Assembly: GCF_009900765.1 (NCBI RefSeq)
Contig: NZ_JAAABL010000001.1
Location: forward strand, 372,001-436,000
Source of the DNA: Rhodovarius lipocyclicus
GTDB lineage: Bacteria; Pseudomonadota; Alphaproteobacteria; Acetobacterales; Acetobacteraceae
DNA: 64,000 bases
Direction: 5' to 3'
In this document: positions 25,482 to 64,000 of the stretch, piece by piece
How the letters are laid out: each line of letters begins with the position of its first letter
Position numbering within the stretch: the stretch's first letter is position 1
The notes under the pieces: generated by a model
The model's database searches: none
The model's input: the letters and a program-made list of their open reading frames with translations, nothing else
What the model was told of the DNA's origin: nothing
Program-made: the position numbers and the translations under genes

Positions 25482-25556
<75 letters not shown>

Positions 25557-26090
25557 TTAATTCCATGATTTTGCTTGGCCCGTAGAGATCATCCGGGCCA
25601 AGCATCGTTCACTAGGGTGCGCGGCGAATCGCAAAATCCCGCGCCCATCCGTGCAAAATCCGTGCAGCCGCACCGACGCAGAATCACGTTTCGTTCTTGC
25701 TCCCCCGCCCCGCCCCGGCTAGAATGCTGGGGCTGCGGCGGCGTGGATGGACACGCAATGCTAGAGGGCAGGTTTTTGGTTCCTGGAGCGTTGCAGCCCG
25801 AGTTGGTGGCGCGGAAGAGCCAGGGTAAAAAAGGCGGCGTAAGGGTGATCGGGCGGGCCGCGTCCAAGTAGCCGGGTATCAAGCCCCGGCCCGCAGTTTC
25901 AATTCTGGTCACTCTCTGGGGCTTACCCGGGGAGGCGGCGGCTGGGCCGAGGGGTAACTCCCCATTGCCAGCAGACTGCGGTGCGCAAGCAGGCGCCGGG
26001 TGGAAGCCCCGGACAGTTTTGGGCGCGGCCGGGCATGAGTGAGCCCTGAACCTGTAAATCCCGCTTACAAGTTCGCCCGCCGCATTAACA
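25557..26090. other. Non-coding left end of the prophage
   Basis: No convincing gene lies in this 534-bp stretch. Besides the hairpin at 25573 it holds a 74-nt structured segment at 25842-25915: ends AGGGTGA and TCACTCT pair over 7 bp (one G-T), and GCCGGG/CCCGGC or GCGGGCC/GGCCCGC can pair inside, with TTTCAATTC near the 3' side like a T loop. A normal D arm is missing, so it is not called a tRNA. The phage attachment arm sites are expected here. Confidence 0.5.
25573..25603 (+). terminator. 10-bp perfect hairpin after tRNA-Thr
   Basis: GCTTGGCCCG and CGGGCCAAGC flank an 11-base loop, 17 bases past the tRNA. It could end tRNA transcription or stop phage read-through; the T-run lies before, not after, the stem. 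Confidence 0.45.
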
Positions 26091-42896: not shown

Positions 42897-44897
42897 TCAG
42901 TTGGTCAGCGGCGAATACGGGACCGCGCGCAGCCATGCTGCCATTGCTTGGTCCGTGCGCTTCGCCTCGGCAGCGGCGCGCTTGATTTCGATATCCGCCT
43001 GCGTGGTCATGGCCTTGGCCTCGACCTCGGCCCGCGCCTTCATCTGCGTGGCCTGGATAGATGCCTGCGTTTTCGCCTGCTCGCCGGCAATCTGCGCCTG
43101 CACCTTCTGCGCCTCGGGGTCCGGACGCCCAGGCTGCTGCTCTTGCTGCTGCAACGCCGCCATGATGCGTTCCACCGCGCTAGCCGGAATGGGCGAGTAC
43201 TTCAGGATTTCTCCCCACACTGCCGTGGGCATGCCCAGCTTCATGATGGCCGGCAGCATGGGCGCCAGCGACGCCCACACCTCTTGTTTGGCATTGGGCG
43301 AGGTAGGCGCCTCATCCACGATGATGTCGTATTTCGCCGCGTCCGGCAGCATGGCCGCGCTCAGCCACTCGGGCTTCCCATCCTCGCCCAGCACGCGCAC
43401 CTGGATGTCGCGCGGCATATACTGCCGGATGAAATACAGCAGCACCTCACCGACACCCTTGCGATAGCGACGCAGACCGTCGAACAAAGGGGCTAGGATC
43501 GCCTGCGCGGCCTGTTTGCGCTGAGCTTCCAGAACGCCGGCCTGCTCTCTGTCCGCCAGACCCAGCATCTCGCGGTTGATGCCGGTGACATCGGGAATAG
43601 ATGCCACAGCGAACTGCATCATTCGCTCAAGTCCGGCGGGCACATTCGCCGCCATTTTTTCCTTGATACGGTTCAGGCCGCCCGGGTTCAGCTTCGAGAC
43701 GCCACCAGGCAGCGCATAGGTGCGCTCCAGCTCCCGCACATCCTCCACCGCGCCCTCCTCGATCAGGAGGCCGCTTTTCGCGCTGGTCGCCAGCACATGG
43801 TGGGCTTGCACGAAAAACATGTTGGCCCACCGCTGCGGGTCTTTCATCGGCCGGACGATGCCGTAGAAATGGCCGGTGTTCCGGTCCAGGATACCCGTCA
43901 TACAGCGCAGCGTCGGGCCATCAGGAAACGGGCAATCCCCGCGCTCCAACACCACATTCCCAGCCACAACAGCCTGATACCACTTCCGGCGCTTCTGCTT
44001 GACCGAGCGCGGCTCAGGCAGGCCGAGTAGCCGCAGCCTCTTGCGGACCTTATCCCATTCCTCCGGCTCAAGTTCCTGCCTGCCGCTGGCGTCGGAAACC
44101 AGCACTACATGGTGCTCCTCGCACCACTGGTAGTGCAGTATCTCCACCATCGGCACGCGGCTTTCGTTGTCATGCAACGTGAAGCCGGTCGTACCGTAGC
44201 GGTCGCGCGGCAGGGCAGATGCTTGCTCGGCCCCGTCCTCGCTTCCAAGCAGCTGGGCGGCCCGCAGTTCGGCGGCCTTTTCAGGCCATTCCTCCATAGC
44301 CACATCCAGGCGCCACTTGCGCACCCGCCCGAATTCGCGCCCATCCGCCAGGTTCTTTTTGCGCGCTGCCGGGTCCCAGAGCGCTTCGGCAGGGTCGAAC
44401 CGGTCTACGCAGATTTCTCCGTCCGGCTCGCTGGAATAGTCCATCCGCAACTCAGTCCAGCCCATGCCGCACGTCACCAGATCGGTGAATGCATGGCTTT
44501 CCTCATCCTCGGCCTGGGATTGCTGGCGTGCGAACGTGATCAGCTTCGTGGCGACATCCGCAGCCCCCGCGTCCTCGAATGAGCGCGGGATCGCCTTGAT
44601 TTCCTGGCGATTATTGACCTCGGAGCCGACAACGGCCTGCACCATGGGGCCGATGCGGTTAAATGTGATGACGGGCCGCCCATCTTCTTCCAGGCGGGCC
44701 CTTTCCTCGCGCGTCCACTGGTCCCCAGCGGGGAAAGCGTAATCTTCGGCGGCTTCCTCGCGCCACTTTTGGGCATGGTCGAGCGCCTTGCGCTTGAACT
44801 CCTGTGCGCGGCGCGCCAAAGCCTCGTCTTCGAGTTCGGAGCCCTCCTCCTCGAAATCGTCTCCCTGGCCGCCGGTGTCGTCGCTCAAGCCGCCCAC
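42897..44897 (-). CDS. Portal protein (P22-like)
   Basis: 666 residues. Hallmarks of the P22-type portal family are visible: WREEAAEDYAFPAGDQW at the start, RPVITFNRIGPMVQAVVG, NNRQEIKAIPR, DAYMGWGW-like replaced by VTCGMGWTELRMDYS, and INREMLGL later. A long Gln/Ala/Lys coiled C-terminus (about 570-665) would form the barrel. The dodecamer is the DNA gate. It overlaps the terminase gene by 13 bases. Confidence 0.88.
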   Translation of the reverse strand: MGGLSDDTGGQGDDFEEEGSELEDEALARRAQEFKRKALDHAQKWREEAAEDYAFPAGDQWTREERARLEEDGRPVITFNRIGPMVQAVVGSEVNNRQEIKAIPRSFEDAGAADVATKLITFARQQSQAEDEESHAFTDLVTCGMGWTELRMDYSSEPDGEICVDRFDPAEALWDPAARKKNLADGREFGRVRKWRLDVAMEEWPEKAAELRAAQLLGSEDGAEQASALPRDRYGTTGFTLHDNESRVPMVEILHYQWCEEHHVVLVSDASGRQELEPEEWDKVRKRLRLLGLPEPRSVKQKRRKWYQAVVAGNVVLERGDCPFPDGPTLRCMTGILDRNTGHFYGIVRPMKDPQRWANMFFVQAHHVLATSAKSGLLIEEGAVEDVRELERTYALPGGVSKLNPGGLNRIKEKMAANVPAGLERMMQFAVASIPDVTGINREMLGLADREQAGVLEAQRKQAAQAILAPLFDGLRRYRKGVGEVLLYFIRQYMPRDIQVRVLGEDGKPEWLSAAMLPDAAKYDIIVDEAPTSPNAKQEVWASLAPMLPAIMKLGMPTAVWGEILKYSPIPASAVERIMAALQQQEQQPGRPDPEAQKVQAQIAGEQAKTQASIQATQMKARAEVEAKAMTTQADIEIKRAAAEAKRTDQAMAAWLRAVPYSPLTN

Positions 44898-46303
44898 CCT
44901 CCACGGCCCGCAGGCCGCTGGGTCGCATAGCTGTCTGGCCGACGGATACCGGCGGCGGGGTCCGTGCGCGTCATCGGGCGGGACATGCAGGCATAGCGCG
45001 CTTCATCGGGCGCATGATCCTCCCCTTCCGTGTCCACATCCTCGGGCCGGCTCTCGTCGTGTTGCAGCGCAGGTAGCGTCCTGATCAAATCGCGGCAGGT
45101 GTTGAATACCACCAGCATCGGGCGTCCCTCGGCGTCGCCCTTGAGGCGCTGCCGCAGCTGATCCCAGCCGCCCATGGCGCCGCGCTGCGACACCCGGGCA
45201 TTGTCAGCGCGGTCGAAAAACACCCCGTGCAGTGCCATCCGCTCAGCGATGCTAGGGCCGTCCTGATTGGCGAAAATCGCCGGGTCAGCGACGCCAGACA
45301 TCGCTTTCCCCTTCGGCATATCGCCCACCTCACGCTCCTTGATCCCGACAGCGACCTCATCAGACGTCAGCCGCAGTCCGACATTCGGCTGCCCCGGCTG
45401 CATCCCATACCACTCGCGGTATCGCACCAGCGCACCACGCGCGATATCCGGCAATGCACCGTCACTGACCGCCCACCACCCCACGGAAAACGGCCGGGCT
45501 GAACCCCAATCCATCGACCGGAACCGATACCAGTGCGCGGGCAGCTCACGCGGTGCCATGACGTGCCGGTCCATGCTGAACTCCGGGAAAAACGCCCCGG
45601 AGATGACGGACCAATCGCCCTCTAGCCACGCCCGCACCAGCTCGGGCGAGCCCGAAGCCTTGAGACGCTGCACATACTCGGCGCCGACATGTGGGTTATC
45701 CGTCACCCTCGACGGGATATAGACCCGCTGTAGCCCCGTCTCAGGGTCAGTGATGACCTTCATCCCCTGCGGATGCGGGTCGATGTAGCGCGCTCGCACC
45801 CATTGGTGCCCAGGGCCGCCTGGGTTGCCCGTCAAGCGCATCCGGCACGGCACCCCAACACCAGAGCGCAGCGTCGCCATCAACTTCAGGATCGGCGCCG
45901 GCGAGGGGAAGTTGCCCGCCTCCTCAACGTAGACCCTTGTGTAGCTGTGGCCCTGATACCCCTGGGCGTCCGCATCGCGCTCAAGGTAGGCGAAATTGAG
46001 ACGCGCCCCATTCGGCATCACAACCCGCATAGGGGTAGCGGTGAATTGCGCTCCTATGGGCCCAAACAACACCCTAGCGCGCTCGAAAGTCTCGGTTAGC
46101 TCCACCCGCGTGCGCCGGACCATAAGGCCAATAGCATGCGAGCCATATTGCGCCGCATGCTGGGCCCATTCGCCTAGCATGCCGTCCGTCTTGCCCCCGC
46201 CGCGCGCCCCGCCGAAGAACACCTCGAACACGGGGCAGGACAGCAATGCCTTCTGGGGGCCGGAGGAGGGCCGCCAGATTACGGTCGGGACGCGCGCTCC
46301 CAC
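44885..46303 (-). CDS. terL: Terminase large subunit
   Basis: 472 residues. The ATPase motor has Walker A GGARGGGKT (31-39) and Walker B RVYVEEAGN. The coupling region TGNPGGPGHQWV follows. The nuclease half has Asp in RSMDWGSARP and a second in GVADPAIF, fitting the RNase H-like cutting domain. It packages DNA into the head through the portal. The start at 46303 overlaps the small-subunit gene by 25 bases; a slightly later start is possible. Confidence 0.9.
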   Translation of the reverse strand: MGARVPTVIWRPSSGPQKALLSCPVFEVFFGGARGGGKTDGMLGEWAQHAAQYGSHAIGLMVRRTRVELTETFERARVLFGPIGAQFTATPMRVVMPNGARLNFAYLERDADAQGYQGHSYTRVYVEEAGNFPSPAPILKLMATLRSGVGVPCRMRLTGNPGGPGHQWVRARYIDPHPQGMKVITDPETGLQRVYIPSRVTDNPHVGAEYVQRLKASGSPELVRAWLEGDWSVISGAFFPEFSMDRHVMAPRELPAHWYRFRSMDWGSARPFSVGWWAVSDGALPDIARGALVRYREWYGMQPGQPNVGLRLTSDEVAVGIKEREVGDMPKGKAMSGVADPAIFANQDGPSIAERMALHGVFFDRADNARVSQRGAMGGWDQLRQRLKGDAEGRPMLVVFNTCRDLIRTLPALQHDESRPEDVDTEGEDHAPDEARYACMSRPMTRTDPAAGIRRPDSYATQRPAGRGGWAA

Positions 46304-54595: not shown

Positions 54596-54796
54596 TCAGG
54601 CCACCTCGCGCTTTGGCACGAAATCGGCGGCAGTGATCTCCCCGGAGGTAGCGTGCTCCAGCTTGGCCACAGCATCCCATGATGGCCGGCGTGTACCCGC
54701 CTCCCAGCCGTAAAGCGTTGTCAGTGGCACCCCTACGCGCCGGGCCATCGCCAAGAGCGTTAGTCGATGCTTTTCACGGTAGGCGGCGATCTGCAT
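54596..54796 (-). CDS. Cro-like HTH repressor
   Basis: 66 residues, a single helix-turn-helix (TLLAMARRVGVPLTTLYGW). It is the first gene of the leftward early arm, and its start is nine bases from operator A, so the repressor blocks it directly. It would oppose the neighbouring repressor as Cro does. A start six codons upstream is possible but would overlap the operator. Confidence 0.72.
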   Translation of the reverse strand: MQIAAYREKHRLTLLAMARRVGVPLTTLYGWEAGTRRPSWDAVAKLEHATSGEITAADFVPKREVA

Positions 54797-54804
54797 GCAG
54801 ATGA

Positions 54805-54838
54805 TTTCGCACACAGCGAAATTTCGCGCAAGGCGAAA
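54805..54838. promoter_or_regulatory. Operator pair, left of the repressor gene
   Basis: Two abutting 17-bp palindromes, TTTCGCACACAGCGAAA (54805-54821) and TTTCGCGCAAGGCGAAA (54822-54838), lie between the Cro-like and repressor genes. The six-base arms are perfect and identical; the middle five differ. They should bind the repressor and control both diverging promoters. A weaker TTCGCG half follows at 54840. Confidence 0.85.
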
Positions 54839-54879
54839 CTTCGCGTCCAGACGCTAAAGAAGTCCTGCTTGCAGCGCAA

Positions 54880-54885
54880 TAATCT
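54880..54885 (+). promoter_or_regulatory. Possible -10 box of the repressor gene
   Basis: TAATCT ends five bases before the repressor ATG, so transcription would begin at or near the start codon and the message would be leaderless, as for lambda cI. No good -35 is seen at 16-18 bp (AAAGAA is closest), so activation by the repressor itself is possible. Confidence 0.35.
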
Positions 54886-54889
54886 AGGA

Positions 54890-55216
54890 ATGACAACGAC
54901 ATTGCATCAATTCCTAAGACCGCATCGCGAAGCCAGAGGGCTGACGCTGGAACAAGTTGCGAACATCACGGGCTTGTCATACAGTTACCTCTCTGATTTC
55001 GAGAGGGGCAAGAAAGGCGTGAAGCTAGAGCAGCTTGAAAAGCTGGCAGCGGCTTATGGCGTGCATCCAGTCGCGCTCTTCATGGCGCCCGAAGACGGCC
55101 CCAGAGCGGAACTAATTCGCAAAGCCTCGGAGATCGCGAGAACAAAATCCGTTGAGGCCGCCGAGGACTGGATCAAGCTAGGCGAGCGGATGCCGAGCGA
55201 AGAACCGAAGGGTTAA
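54890..55216 (+). CDS. Prophage repressor, short XRE type
   Basis: 108 residues. The helix-turn-helix (LTLEQVANITGLSYSYLSDF) occupies residues 18-37, followed by a helical region and a short acidic/basic end. It has no S24/LexA-type peptidase domain, so RecA-driven self-cleavage is not expected and induction needs another route. It lies between the two operator pairs and must be the immunity repressor. AGGA directly touches the ATG, fitting a leaderless or poorly initiated message. Confidence 0.8.
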   Translation: MTTTLHQFLRPHREARGLTLEQVANITGLSYSYLSDFERGKKGVKLEQLEKLAAAYGVHPVALFMAPEDGPRAELIRKASEIARTKSVEAAEDWIKLGERMPSEEPKG

Positions 55217-55221
55217 AGTTT

Positions 55222-55262
55222 TTTCGCTCTACGCGAAATTTTCTCTTTCGCACTGAGCGAAA
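55222..55262. promoter_or_regulatory. Operator pair, right of the repressor gene
   Basis: TTTCGCTCTACGCGAAA (55222-55238) and TTTCGCACTGAGCGAAA (55246-55262) repeat the same arms as the left pair, here with 24-bp centre spacing. They start five bases after the repressor stop and lie 55 bases before the first gene of the rightward arm, so they should silence that operon in the lysogen. Confidence 0.85.
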
Positions 55263-55316
55263 TTCCGGCATCTATGGCTCCACACCCGGAGCCGCTGGCT
55301 CCAAGAGGAGCCCGAG

Positions 55317-55670
55317 ATGAGCGAGACGAAAAACGCCCTTACGCCGGCTGACCAGTGGGGCGAAAAGGCGGATTGGGTCGAAGCCGAAGATGGCACGATC
55401 GTTTGCCTTTCCCCGGAAGACGCCTTCGAAGAAAGCCGGGCGCTCTGGCCCCAGCGGCGCCGCCTGATCGCGGCGGCCCCGGCGCTGCTGGAGGCGCTGG
55501 ATGATCTTCTGGCCTTCCACGACCACACCCACCCCCGCCACTCGGCGCTGCTCGAAGATTACCACGAAGCGTGCGTGGCTGCCGAGTTTCCTGCGAAGTC
55601 CTCCGATTTGTTGGATGACCTTATGCGGGCCGCCAGCACCGCCATCGCCTCTGCGCGCGGGGAGGGCTGA
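55317..55670 (+). CDS. Early rightward phage protein
   Basis: 117 residues. RRRLIAAAPALLEALDDLL is a helix found in many small phage early proteins of unknown role. It has GAGGAGCC before the ATG and is the first gene behind the right operators. Confidence 0.62.
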   Translation: MSETKNALTPADQWGEKADWVEAEDGTIVCLSPEDAFEESRALWPQRRRLIAAAPALLEALDDLLAFHDHTHPRHSALLEDYHEACVAAEFPAKSSDLLDDLMRAASTAIASARGEG

Positions 55671-55673
55671 GCC

Positions 55674-56684
55674 ATGAGCGAGACGAAGCCCCGCCGCAGC
55701 CGTGCGAAGAAGGCCGATCCTGTCCCCGCCACCGAGGTGGCCACGCCCGCCGATCCCTACCGCATCACCATCTGCCGCATCCGCGAGTGGGGCGCGTGCC
55801 AGGACGGCCGCGACTGGTTCCGCGCCAAGTTTCCGAATGGCGCCAGCTACGGTGAGACCATCGAGGCGCTGCTGTCCGATGGTCGCCGATCCGATGCCGC
55901 TTGGCTGGACTGTCACGTCATCGACGCATGGGGGGCCCAGGGCGATTTCATCGCCCAGGCTGTGGCCGATCAGATCAGGATTACGACTGCGGCGGCCGAG
56001 AAGGTGGTGGCGGGCGCCGACAGCCGCCTCGCTGCGTCGGGCGACGCCAGCCGCATCGCTGCGTCGGGCCACTACAGCCGCCTCGCTGCGGCGGGCGCCG
56101 ACAGCCGCATCGCTGCGTCGGGCGACGCCAGCCGCCTCGCTGCGGCGGGCCACTACAGCCGCCTCGCTGCGGCGGGCCACTACAGCCGCCTCGCTGCGTC
56201 GGGCGACGCCAGCCGCATCGCTGCGTCGGGCGACGCCAGCCGCCTCGCTGCGGCGGGCCACTACAGCCGCCTCGCTGCGGCGGGCCACTACAGCCGCCTC
56301 GCTGCGGCGGGCGCCGACAGCCGCCTCGCTGCGGCGGGCCACTACAGCCGCCTCGCTGCGGCGGGCCACTACAGCAGCCTCGCTGCGGCGGGCGCCGACA
56401 GCCGCCTCGCTGCGTCGGGCGACGACAGCCGCATCGCTGCGGCGGGCGCCGACAGCAGCCTCGCTGCGGCGGGCGCCGACAGCAGCCTCGCTGCGGCGGG
56501 CGCCGACAGCCGCCTGACCCTCGGCCCCAATAGCTGCGGTGCCGCGGTGTGGTGGGATGGCTGTCGCTACCGGTTTGCGACCTGCACCACGGCTGATGGC
56601 GATCTGTCGCCCGGCGAGCAGAGGGTTAAGGTAGGCGTGCGGTATCGCGTTGATGGCGCCGGCCAGTTCGTGGAGGACGTGTGA
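55674..56684 (+). CDS. Nine-residue-repeat protein, probable beta-solenoid
   Basis: 336 residues. A globular N-terminal part (about 25-112: ITICRIREWGACQDGRDWFR) precedes about 18 copies of a 9-residue repeat of type G-[ADH]-[DAY]-S-[RS]-[LI]-A-A-[AS] (residues 114-283), then a C-terminal part with Cys and Trp (SCGAAVWWDGCRYRF). Regular Ala and Ser spacing suggests a solenoid with a small-residue core; similar 9-mers occur in phage proteins with DUF7666-like repeats. Function unknown; its place in the early arm argues against a structural role. Confidence 0.7.
   Translation: MSETKPRRSRAKKADPVPATEVATPADPYRITICRIREWGACQDGRDWFRAKFPNGASYGETIEALLSDGRRSDAAWLDCHVIDAWGAQGDFIAQAVADQIRITTAAAEKVVAGADSRLAASGDASRIAASGHYSRLAAAGADSRIAASGDASRLAAAGHYSRLAAAGHYSRLAASGDASRIAASGDASRLAAAGHYSRLAAAGHYSRLAAAGADSRLAAAGHYSRLAAAGHYSSLAAAGADSRLAASGDDSRIAAAGADSSLAAAGADSSLAAAGADSRLTLGPNSCGAAVWWDGCRYRFATCTTADGDLSPGEQRVKVGVRYRVDGAGQFVEDV
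56013..56525 (+). repeat. 27-bp tandem repeats, 18 full copies plus one partial
   Basis: The repeats follow the codon frame of the gene above, with few changes, mainly in codons 2, 3 and 9 of each unit. Other frames and the antisense strand are also open here because of the repetition. Copy number could change by slippage or recombination. Confidence 0.9.
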
Positions 56685-58074: not shown

Positions 58075-58292
58075 GCAAGCCGATCCCGCGCCCGCCCGGC
58101 TACGATCCCGCCGTCATCGGACCGCTGACTGTCGAGGTCTACAAGAAACGGCTAGGCCCTTACGACACGGCCCGCATGCTGGAGAAGGACGACGATGGCG
58201 GCGAGAAGCTGGCCCGTCGCGCCAAGGCATACGAGCCCATCGTCAAGGCGACGCTTGACGCGCTTTCCGACATGGCCCGGGGGCAGGCATGA
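58071..58292 (+). CDS. Small early phage protein
   Basis: 73 residues, GTG start in a GTGA overlap. Basic and helical, with PRPPGYDPAVIGPLTVEVYK at the front. It directly precedes the exonuclease gene. Unknown function. Confidence 0.55.
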   Translation: MSKPIPRPPGYDPAVIGPLTVEVYKKRLGPYDTARMLEKDDDGGEKLARRAKAYEPIVKATLDALSDMARGQA

Positions 58293-58969
58293 CCATCACC
58301 TATCACCCCGAGGTCATCCAGGGCAGCGAGGAGTGGCTGGCGCTGCGGTGCGGGCTGCTCACGGCTAGCGAAATGAAGCTGATCGTGACGCCCAGCCTCA
58401 AGCCGGCTGCCAACGACAAGCAGCGCGCGCACCTGTTCGAGCTGGTCGCCCAGCGCATCAGTGGGTTCGTGGAGCCGACCTATATCGGTGACGACATGCT
58501 GCGCGGCCAGGACGACGAGATCGAGGCCCGGCAACGGTATGCCGACGCCTATGCGCCCGTGACCGCGTGCGGCTTCGTCACTAACGACGAGTGGGGCTTT
58601 ACCCTCGGCTGCTCGCCTGATGGGCTGGTGGGCGATGATGGTCTGATCGAGATCAAAAGCCGCCGCCAGAAGTTCCAGGTGGCGACGATCTGCGCGCGCC
58701 AGATGCCGGACGATTACGTGATGCAGGTGCAAACCGCCCTGCTCGTGACCGGCCGGGCGTGGTGCGACTTCATCAGCTACAGCGGCGGCCTGCCGATGGT
58801 GACGCTTCGGGTTTACCCCGACAAGCGCATCCAGGCCTCCATTATCCATGCCGCTACCATGTTCGAGGAAGCGGCCTCCCAACTCGTTGAAACCTATCGC
58901 GCCAACCTGGAAGCCGACGACCTGCGCTGGCTGCCCACGGAGAGGCGCCCAGAGGAGATCATCCTGTGA
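58289..58969 (+). CDS. YqaJ-type viral recombinase (lambda exonuclease family)
   Basis: 226 residues. The PD-(D/E)XK nuclease is complete: Glu14-Glu15 and Trp16 in SEEWLALR, Asp111 in SPDGLV, Glu121 and Lys123 in IEIKS, then the QVQTALLV helix. It chews dsDNA ends 5'-3' for single-strand annealing recombination. ATGA overlaps tie it to the neighbours on both sides. Confidence 0.88.
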   Translation: MTITYHPEVIQGSEEWLALRCGLLTASEMKLIVTPSLKPAANDKQRAHLFELVAQRISGFVEPTYIGDDMLRGQDDEIEARQRYADAYAPVTACGFVTNDEWGFTLGCSPDGLVGDDGLIEIKSRRQKFQVATICARQMPDDYVMQVQTALLVTGRAWCDFISYSGGLPMVTLRVYPDKRIQASIIHAATMFEEAASQLVETYRANLEADDLRWLPTERRPEEIIL

Positions 58970-62643: not shown

Positions 62644-62812
62644 CGCCGCCGCCGAACGCAGCGCCCATGTGGTGCGAGAGCGCCCGGCAAACGAGCCAGA
62701 CCCGCACGGCCCAGACGGCACGCACCCTATCGTCCTGCTGCCAGATGGCCGTTGGATATGCCGAGCCGTGTGGCGGCTGCGTCAGCGGTTGAAGGGAGGC
62801 TCCGATGGGTGA
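62627..62812 (+). CDS. Small early phage protein
   Basis: 61 residues with a polar start and a basic end (VWRLRQRLKGGSDG). PHGPDGTHPIVLLPDGRWI is a short beta-like piece. Unknown function. Confidence 0.5.
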   Translation: MTGQSNAAAERSAHVVRERPANEPDPHGPDGTHPIVLLPDGRWICRAVWRLRQRLKGGSDG

Positions 62813-63182
62813 TGCCCTGCTGACACTGGCTGATATGCAGGCCCGGCTGCATTGCGGTCGGACTTGGCTTCTCAGCCACCTCAAGGACCACCCGCACTAT
62901 GCCGGTGGCCCTACCCATCGGCGCGCCGGGCGCCGTATCGTCGCATCTGAGGCCGATTTCGCGCGGTTGGTGGAGAGCCTGGAATGCCCCTCAAGGTTGT
63001 CTCGCGCCCCGGAACTGCCATCCTCTATGTCCGTGGCACGGTCAGAGGACAAAGCATTTTCGAGAGCACGGGCACTTCTAAACCCGAAAAAGCCGAAGCC
63101 TACCGATCGAAGCGGGAAGCGGAGCTCTGGGACCGTAGCGTCTATGGCGCCCGGGCGGTCGTCACCTTTGCGCACGCCGTAG
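62805..63182 (+). CDS. Probable excisionase-type HTH protein
   Basis: 125 residues; the first 60 are a winged-helix/AlpA-like domain (TLADMQARLHCGRTWLLSHL, then RRAGRRIVASEADFARLVES). The last half overlaps the integrase gene in another frame and looks like non-conserved extension. Excisionases lie directly before integrase genes in this way. Confidence in the fold is better than in the role. Confidence 0.6.
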   Translation: MGDALLTLADMQARLHCGRTWLLSHLKDHPHYAGGPTHRRAGRRIVASEADFARLVESLECPSRLSRAPELPSSMSVARSEDKAFSRARALLNPKKPKPTDRSGKRSSGTVASMAPGRSSPLRTP

Positions 63183-64000
63183 CGTCCTATCTGGAAGACC
63201 GCGAACGGCGCCCAGCAGACAAGGCGCTGATAAGCAAGCTGCTGGATCATTACGGCACAACCCAGCTCGGCAAGATCACCCAGGAAACGCTGCCGGGCGC
63301 CTATCGTGCGTGCCTCAAGAAGGGCCTTGAGGCAGCGCCGGCCACCAAGCTGCGAAACGTGCTGGTGCCGCTCCGAGCGATCCTCGAGCATGCCGCCATC
63401 ATGGGCTGGTGCGCGCGGCCCGCCTTCAAATCGCCGGAAGTTCCGAAGCAGGTCACACCGTATCTGCGCCCCGCTGAGGCAACCGCCCTTGTACAGGCCG
63501 CAGCGCCGCACCTACGCCCGCTTCTGGTGCTCTTGATCGGCACAGGTGTGCGCCTGTCTGAGGCGCTGGAACTGGATTGGAGCAAGGTGGACCTGCGAGG
63601 CGGCAGGGCGACGGTATGGCAGAAGCAGCAAGACGAGCGAGATGTGGAATTGCCCCCCGCTGTCCTTGCGGCGCTCTCTGCGCTCCCGCACCGCAAGGGG
63701 CCCGTGTTCCGGCCTCCGGCGCGCGCAGGCCGCAAGGTGGCGAGCTATAGAGACAACGGCCGAGAGGGCGGTGGCCAAATCAAAACTGGTTGGGCTGGCG
63801 CGCGAAAGCGGGCCGGTCTGTCAGCCGAGCTCACGCCACACGACTGCCGTCATACCTGGGCGACATGGCACTATTGCATCCACAAGGATCTTCAGCGGCT
63901 GCGTGATGAGGGCGGCTGGGGCTCTGTGAAGATGGTGGAGCGGTATGCCAAGCGCATGCCGGATGCCTATCGTAAGGATGCCATGGCGTGGCTGGATGGG
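62984..64000 (+). CDS. int: Tyrosine integrase, cut by the window end
   Basis: 339 codons are seen without a stop. The N-terminal arm-binding part (PLKVVSRPGTAILYVRGTVR) precedes the catalytic domain: Arg190 in GTGVRLSE, Lys214 in WQKQQDE, His286-x-x-Arg289 in HDCRH, Trp in GGWGS and nucleophile Tyr321 in VERYAK. All five key positions are present, so it should be active. ATG 62984 matches the usual N-terminus. Its end and the attR site lie beyond base 64000. Confidence 0.92.
   Translation, partial: MPLKVVSRPGTAILYVRGTVRGQSIFESTGTSKPEKAEAYRSKREAELWDRSVYGARAVVTFAHAVASYLEDRERRPADKALISKLLDHYGTTQLGKITQETLPGAYRACLKKGLEAAPATKLRNVLVPLRAILEHAAIMGWCARPAFKSPEVPKQVTPYLRPAEATALVQAAAPHLRPLLVLLIGTGVRLSEALELDWSKVDLRGGRATVWQKQQDERDVELPPAVLAALSALPHRKGPVFRPPARAGRKVASYRDNGREGGGQIKTGWAGARKRAGLSAELTPHDCRHTWATWHYCIHKDLQRLRDEGGWGSVKMVERYAKRMPDAYRKDAMAWLDG

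Follow-up and report, generated by a model that had tools for sequence, protein, structure and literature searches.

In a 64,000-nucleotide stretch of Rhodovarius lipocyclicus DNA (the window), a small repressor gene is flanked on each side by two copies of the same 17-bp dyad, which raises the question of whether one repressor shuts the genes on both sides. The region is read here, at a probability of about 0.88, as the immunity region of a temperate prophage in which one repressor and four operators shut both arms. In the proposed switch, the 108-residue repressor, probably as a dimer, would bind all four operators. The left pair would cover the -35 and the spacer/-10 of a leftward promoter serving cro together with the replication/packaging arm, and the right pair would cover the start of a rightward operon with recombination genes, an excisionase-like gene and the integrase. 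Both arms would then be closed by the same protein blocking RNA polymerase, since the operator pairs cover both outward operon starts. A divergently encoded Cro-like protein would probably read these operators too, as in lambda.

Sites, genes and promoters in the window

Four exact 17-bp sites of the form TTTCGC-N5-GCGAAA, which share the same 6-bp arms but not their N5 centres, are present in two pairs. The outer left site L1 (54805-54821, TTTCGC-ACACA-GCGAAA) and the inner left site L2 (54822-54838, TTTCGC-GCAAG-GCGAAA) abut head to tail, 17 bp from start to start. R1 (55222-55238, TTTCGC-TCTAC-GCGAAA) lies 5 bp past the repressor stop codon, and R2 (55246-55262, TTTCGC-ACTGA-GCGAAA) starts 24 bp from R1. 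The repressor gene (54890-55216, plus strand, 327 bp with stop) lies between the two pairs, and the flanking sites described in the first-pass annotation are all in place. No further full copy had been noticed there, and a search of the whole 4.59-Mb genome agreed, returning these four exact copies and none with the arms reversed as a control. Allowing one mismatch added five copies, all single, scattered and far off (control, one). Within the window, two-mismatch matches besides the four sites were at chance level (3, with 2.1 expected). Rfam contained no matching family, and a plasmid search gave no DNA match.

The sites lie inside an intact 38.6-kb temperate prophage with the PR/PL layout of lambda. 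Its ends are marked by 49 bp from the 3' part of a tRNA-Thr gene, present twice (window 25482-25557 and 64079-64127). The att core is an exact 49-bp repeat at 25509-25557 (plus strand) within the tRNA-Thr gene, and its second copy, at window coordinates 64079-64127, directly follows the tyrosine-type integrase gene (62984-64000, continuing to window coordinate 64057, plus strand; Phage_integrase, 4.9e-19) at the far end of the prophage. The leftward arm, on the minus strand, carries the cro-like gene, replication genes, a VRR-NUC gene and, in its far part, the portal and large terminase genes (42897-46303; phrog_156, 1.7e-116, and phrog_2, 1.1e-37). The rightward arm, on the plus strand, starts with an open reading frame weakly matching phrog_1273 (55317-55670) and contains a YqaJ-type exonuclease gene (58289-58969; Pfam YqaJ, 6.5e-16), a conserved partner gene, an excisionase-like gene (62805-63182; weak phrog_1840 match, E = 0.0085) and the integrase gene. 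Within the second gene of this operon (55674-56684), a 27-bp unit is repeated in tandem 18.8 times (56009-56515) and encodes SRLAAAG-type repeats.

The repressor matched HTH families only (Pfam HTH_31, 1.5e-14), and a Peptidase_S24/LexA-type self-cleavage domain is absent. Its predicted structure is a five-helix HTH followed by two short C-terminal helices of low confidence, with no recognisable oligomerisation domain beyond these two. The model would be compatible with a dimer like that of truncated TP901-1 CI (PMC4941734). A search of solved structures returned generic HTH regulators only, and searches of viral and genome contigs with this repressor alone gave no useful relative.

The Cro-like gene (54596-54796, minus strand; HTH_31/HTH_3) diverges from the repressor gene and encodes 66 residues if it starts at ATG 54796, GTG 54814 being possible too. 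A putative -35 of the leftward promoter (TTGCGC, 54826-54831, minus strand) falls in the centre of L2, which reads TTTCGC-CTTGC-GCGAAA on that strand. The corresponding putative -10 (GAAATC, 54803-54808, minus strand), assigned from its spacing of 17 bp from the -35, would place L1 over the spacer/-10 region. A candidate -10 for the repressor's own promoter (TAATCT, 54880-54885, plus strand) is found near the ATG. A scan for consensus promoters found none of these elements, TAATCT included. The left pair had been described as covering both diverging promoters. It does overlap the region of the Cro-like promoter, but the putative repressor promoter and start, at about 54858-54890, lie to its right, so the pair would be upstream of the repressor promoter and not on it. 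The right pair stands at the head of the rightward operon, as had been proposed, although the gap between R1 and R2 has no TTG-type -35 like that of related loci and the rightward promoter was therefore not located. Pairing TTTCGC of R2 as a -35 with CATCTA (55269-55274) as a -10 is a guess.

Dyads at homologous repressors

Repressor homologues were gathered from 397 genomes of the bacterial family and 397 of the order, the two sets overlapping in part. Loci were picked by protein similarity only, and dyads thus had no part in their choice. N6-N5-N6 dyads were searched in the 220 bp before and the 260 bp after each gene and compared with 200 dinucleotide shuffles per locus. Among the 23 close loci (profile score >90), which include a few near-duplicates (L027/L028, L032/L033), 17 carried one and the same dyad family on both flanks, at a level matched by 0 of the 200 shuffles. 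At four more, both-sided dyads were equalled by 2 to 6 shuffles, and the other two (L010, L019) had no such dyads on both sides. The repressor has homologues within its own bacterial family and in Acetobacter phage phiAP1. Like the window, these related switches have a homologous repressor (about 105 residues), a divergent Cro-like gene and N6-N5-N6 dyads on both sides. The arms vary by phage (TTTCGC, TTAGCG, TGTGCA, GTTGCC, TGTGCC, CTTACC, TATACG and others, about a dozen in all). The comparison shows a switch layout that is common to many phages of this family, with DNA specificities that would change from one to another.

The geometry is also conserved. Left sites are spaced by 16-17 bp, as in the window, at L011, L015, L032, L039 and L042 and on the viral contigs L059 and L060, and in most relatives R1 lies a few bp past the repressor stop. 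Of 21 left sides, 18 (that of the window among them) have a TTG-type -35 on the minus strand at 7-8 bp past L1, so that the placement of L1 relative to the -35 is kept. On the right, relatives have their sites 33-35 bp apart, mostly with a TTG-type -35 about 10-11 bp before R2 (20 gaps compared). These fixed TTG distances would put the outer operators between the -35 and the -10 of two outward promoters. The window differs: its right sites are 24 bp apart, without the TTG. Relatives have some 10 bp more in this gap, nearly one helical turn, and the window has lost the -35; in a comparison by eye with L007 (ATTTTCTC-TTGCGTAAAT-TTCTAC), the ten bases absent from the window were those holding TTGCG.

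A third and weaker site occurs at the repressor start in some relatives (L060:3129-3145, L059:8048-8064), possibly for autoregulation; no third site is present at the repressor's own start in the window. The same R. lipocyclicus genome holds a second switch (L055:1775-2237; genome C1:158774-159236) with TGKGCG arms, in which one site precedes the repressor gene (L055:1869-2186) and two follow it, 34 bp apart. The two switches differ in their operators, and cross-repression between them is thus not expected. Repeat-coding sequence (DAAWDAAR) is found downstream of the second switch as well.

In the reverse approach, the presence of two TTTCGC sites within 30 bp was the only criterion in a scan of viral contigs. 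Seven contigs were found, and none with the reversed-arm pattern. Because the contigs were selected by their dyads, a nearby HTH gene is an independent observation; one of the repressor type was present on five of the seven, and no HTH match was found near the paired site on L056 and L058. The recognition helices of the five (GYLSD twice, SYLSD, SYLSE, GYYNE) resemble that of the window (SYLSD). Since YLS is widespread as an Xre motif, the informative part of the match is the acidic position, which is kept in all five and is K, R, G or S in other relatives. L060 and L062 are closely like the window, with an abutting left pair (17 bp) and right sites 34 bp apart. L058 carries a tandem array (L058:4720-4817) with TTTCGC-N5-GCGAAA sites about 27 bp apart. 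Between the repressor gene and the right pair, L059 and L061 carry an extra gene, which encodes 291 and 173 aa, respectively, and has a lipoprotein-like start in both.

These comparisons support the view that the four sites are operators of this type of repressor and head both outward operons. The claim of the first-pass annotation that the repressor closes both arms draws its backing from the same comparative evidence, in which the sites behave as operators of such repressors would.

Looping, readers and other explanations

Repressor dimers might instead bridge the two pairs, and the resulting loop, about 0.42 kb long and spanning the repressor gene, would set repression or autoregulation. 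Two pairs of one site stand at that distance, and there is a precedent in lambda CI, which loops between OL and OR, operator sets about 2.3 kb apart (PMC5880393). Yet the left-right distances in 21 loci have no common helical phase (Rayleigh p about 0.09-0.27), and no oligomerisation domain is recognised in the repressor apart from the two weak C-terminal helices. On L059 and L061 the right pair is far from the repressor, beyond the extra gene, so that the left-right distance is not conserved. The loop across the gene that had been suggested as an option is therefore not upheld and is considered unlikely.

Which protein reads the sites was approached through the recognition helices. Within a phage, repressor and Cro helices are much more alike than chance predicts (mean BLOSUM 8.5 vs 1.8, p 5e-5, 15 reduced loci), for example VAHTTVGRW and VSHTTVSRW at TGTGCA arms, or MSEPSVSKW and VSEPTVSRW at CTTTCA arms. 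Arm similarity tracks the helices of both proteins (Mantel r 0.67 for Cro and 0.47 for the repressor, from helix strings copied by hand and with phylogeny allowed for by the reduced locus set only). Since Cro helices track the arms at least as well, and the window Cro helix (PLTTLYGW) has its nearest match in that of phiAP1 (SVTTLHGY), whose arms are also TTTCGC, the Cro-like protein could be the main reader, with the targets of the 108-residue protein elsewhere. This is distinctly improbable: the repressor helices follow the arms too, and the repressor-like genes beside TTTCGC sites on viral contigs share the acidic position of the window repressor. Repressor and Cro-like protein probably share the operators, as in lambda. 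Repressors of the phiAP1 type reach TTTCGC arms with another helix, so any code linking helix and arm has more than one solution.

R1 could also be the terminator of the repressor gene, its dyad and the following TTTTCTCTTT scoring as terminator-like. Such scores occur in the region at chance frequency (1 found, 1.6 expected), R1 has the arms of the left pair, and relatives keep the dyad with phage-specific arms and no T-run behind it. A terminator in place of an operator is thus very hard to credit and was rejected on the chance-level score and the T-run-free dyads. A chance or host-wide motif unconnected with the repressor, for which the single one-mismatch copies elsewhere might speak, is refuted as far as sequence can tell by the confinement of exact copies to this locus (reversed-arm control, 0) and by the recurrence of both-sided dyads with other arms at homologous repressors.

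A wider generalisation is tentative, and we put it at slightly under even odds: a phage family would combine a minimal repressor without a self-cleavage domain and a Cro paralogue with a matched helix, acting on phage-private operator pairs through a helix-arm code, and would be induced other than via self-cleavage. If this is true, helix-to-arm pairs would amount to a specificity code that exists in nature, and induction of the SOS type would have to act otherwise than by self-cleavage of the repressor. The mode of induction is a testable question, because the repressor has no peptidase domain and yet the related phiAP1 is inducible by mitomycin C (PMC8566455). For a bacterial family in which genetic tools are few, the locus would offer a compact, testable lysogeny switch. 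The related switches, with their joint changes in repressor, Cro and operator, could show on what basis a recognition helix selects its DNA half-site, and might be used to predict mutual immunity of prophages.

Comparison with known switches

In lambda, CI is placed between OL and OR and two regulators share the operators; the PR arm holds cro and replication genes, and the PL arm recombination genes, xis and int. The window resembles it in the CI/Cro divergence, in operators at both putative early promoters and in the contents of the PR- and PL-type arms, its excisionase match being weak. Lambda differs in having three operators on each side and in the rex genes that separate OL from cI, and its CI, which loops, has a cleavable C-terminal domain. 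The position of the extra gene on L059 and L061 resembles that of rex.

In N15 and phiKO2 (immB; telomere phages), the prophage repressor likewise has no self-cleavage residues and there are OR and OL sets, but the operators are of 16 bp, three plus two, with OL upstream of repA, and the Cro protein of phiKO2 binds OR3 only (PMC4997575). CI of lactococcal phage TP901-1 has, like the window repressor model, an HTH followed by a helical pair, which in TP901-1 is the dimerisation part (PMC4941734). The TP901-1 protein differs in its greater length and in being a hexamer, and its system includes three operators and a Mor antirepressor.

Acetobacter phage phiAP1 has a homologous Xre repressor (48% identical) and Cro-like protein (36%), divergent genes and dyads on both sides with TTTCGC-type arms. 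It departs from the window in its recognition helix and in its spacings, which are 34 bp for the right sites, with a TTGAC -35 in between, and 60 bp for the left ones. Xre proteins are named in the phiAP1 paper but operators are not (PMC8566455), and the literature searched contained no report of these TTTCGC operators.

For Rhizobium phage 16-3, operators were taken from the annotation of record NC_011103. As in the window, an operator pair lies directly on each side of the repressor gene (OL1/OL2 after c, OR1/OR2 before it). OL1 and OL2 are 17 bp apart, as are the left sites here, and PL, with its -35 element between or within operators, is directed towards xis and int. Its C repressor is unlike that of the window, having 263 aa and a Peptidase_S24 domain; BLASTP found no similarity between the two, and a weak HTH profile match was all that linked them. 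The 16-3 operators are annotated as 12-14 bp of the AATTGT/ACAA type, as against TTTCGC/GCGAAA arms in the window. The arrangement of two pairs around a repressor is therefore already known from phage 16-3, and what is new at this locus is the repressor lineage, the operator and the right pair with 24-bp spacing.
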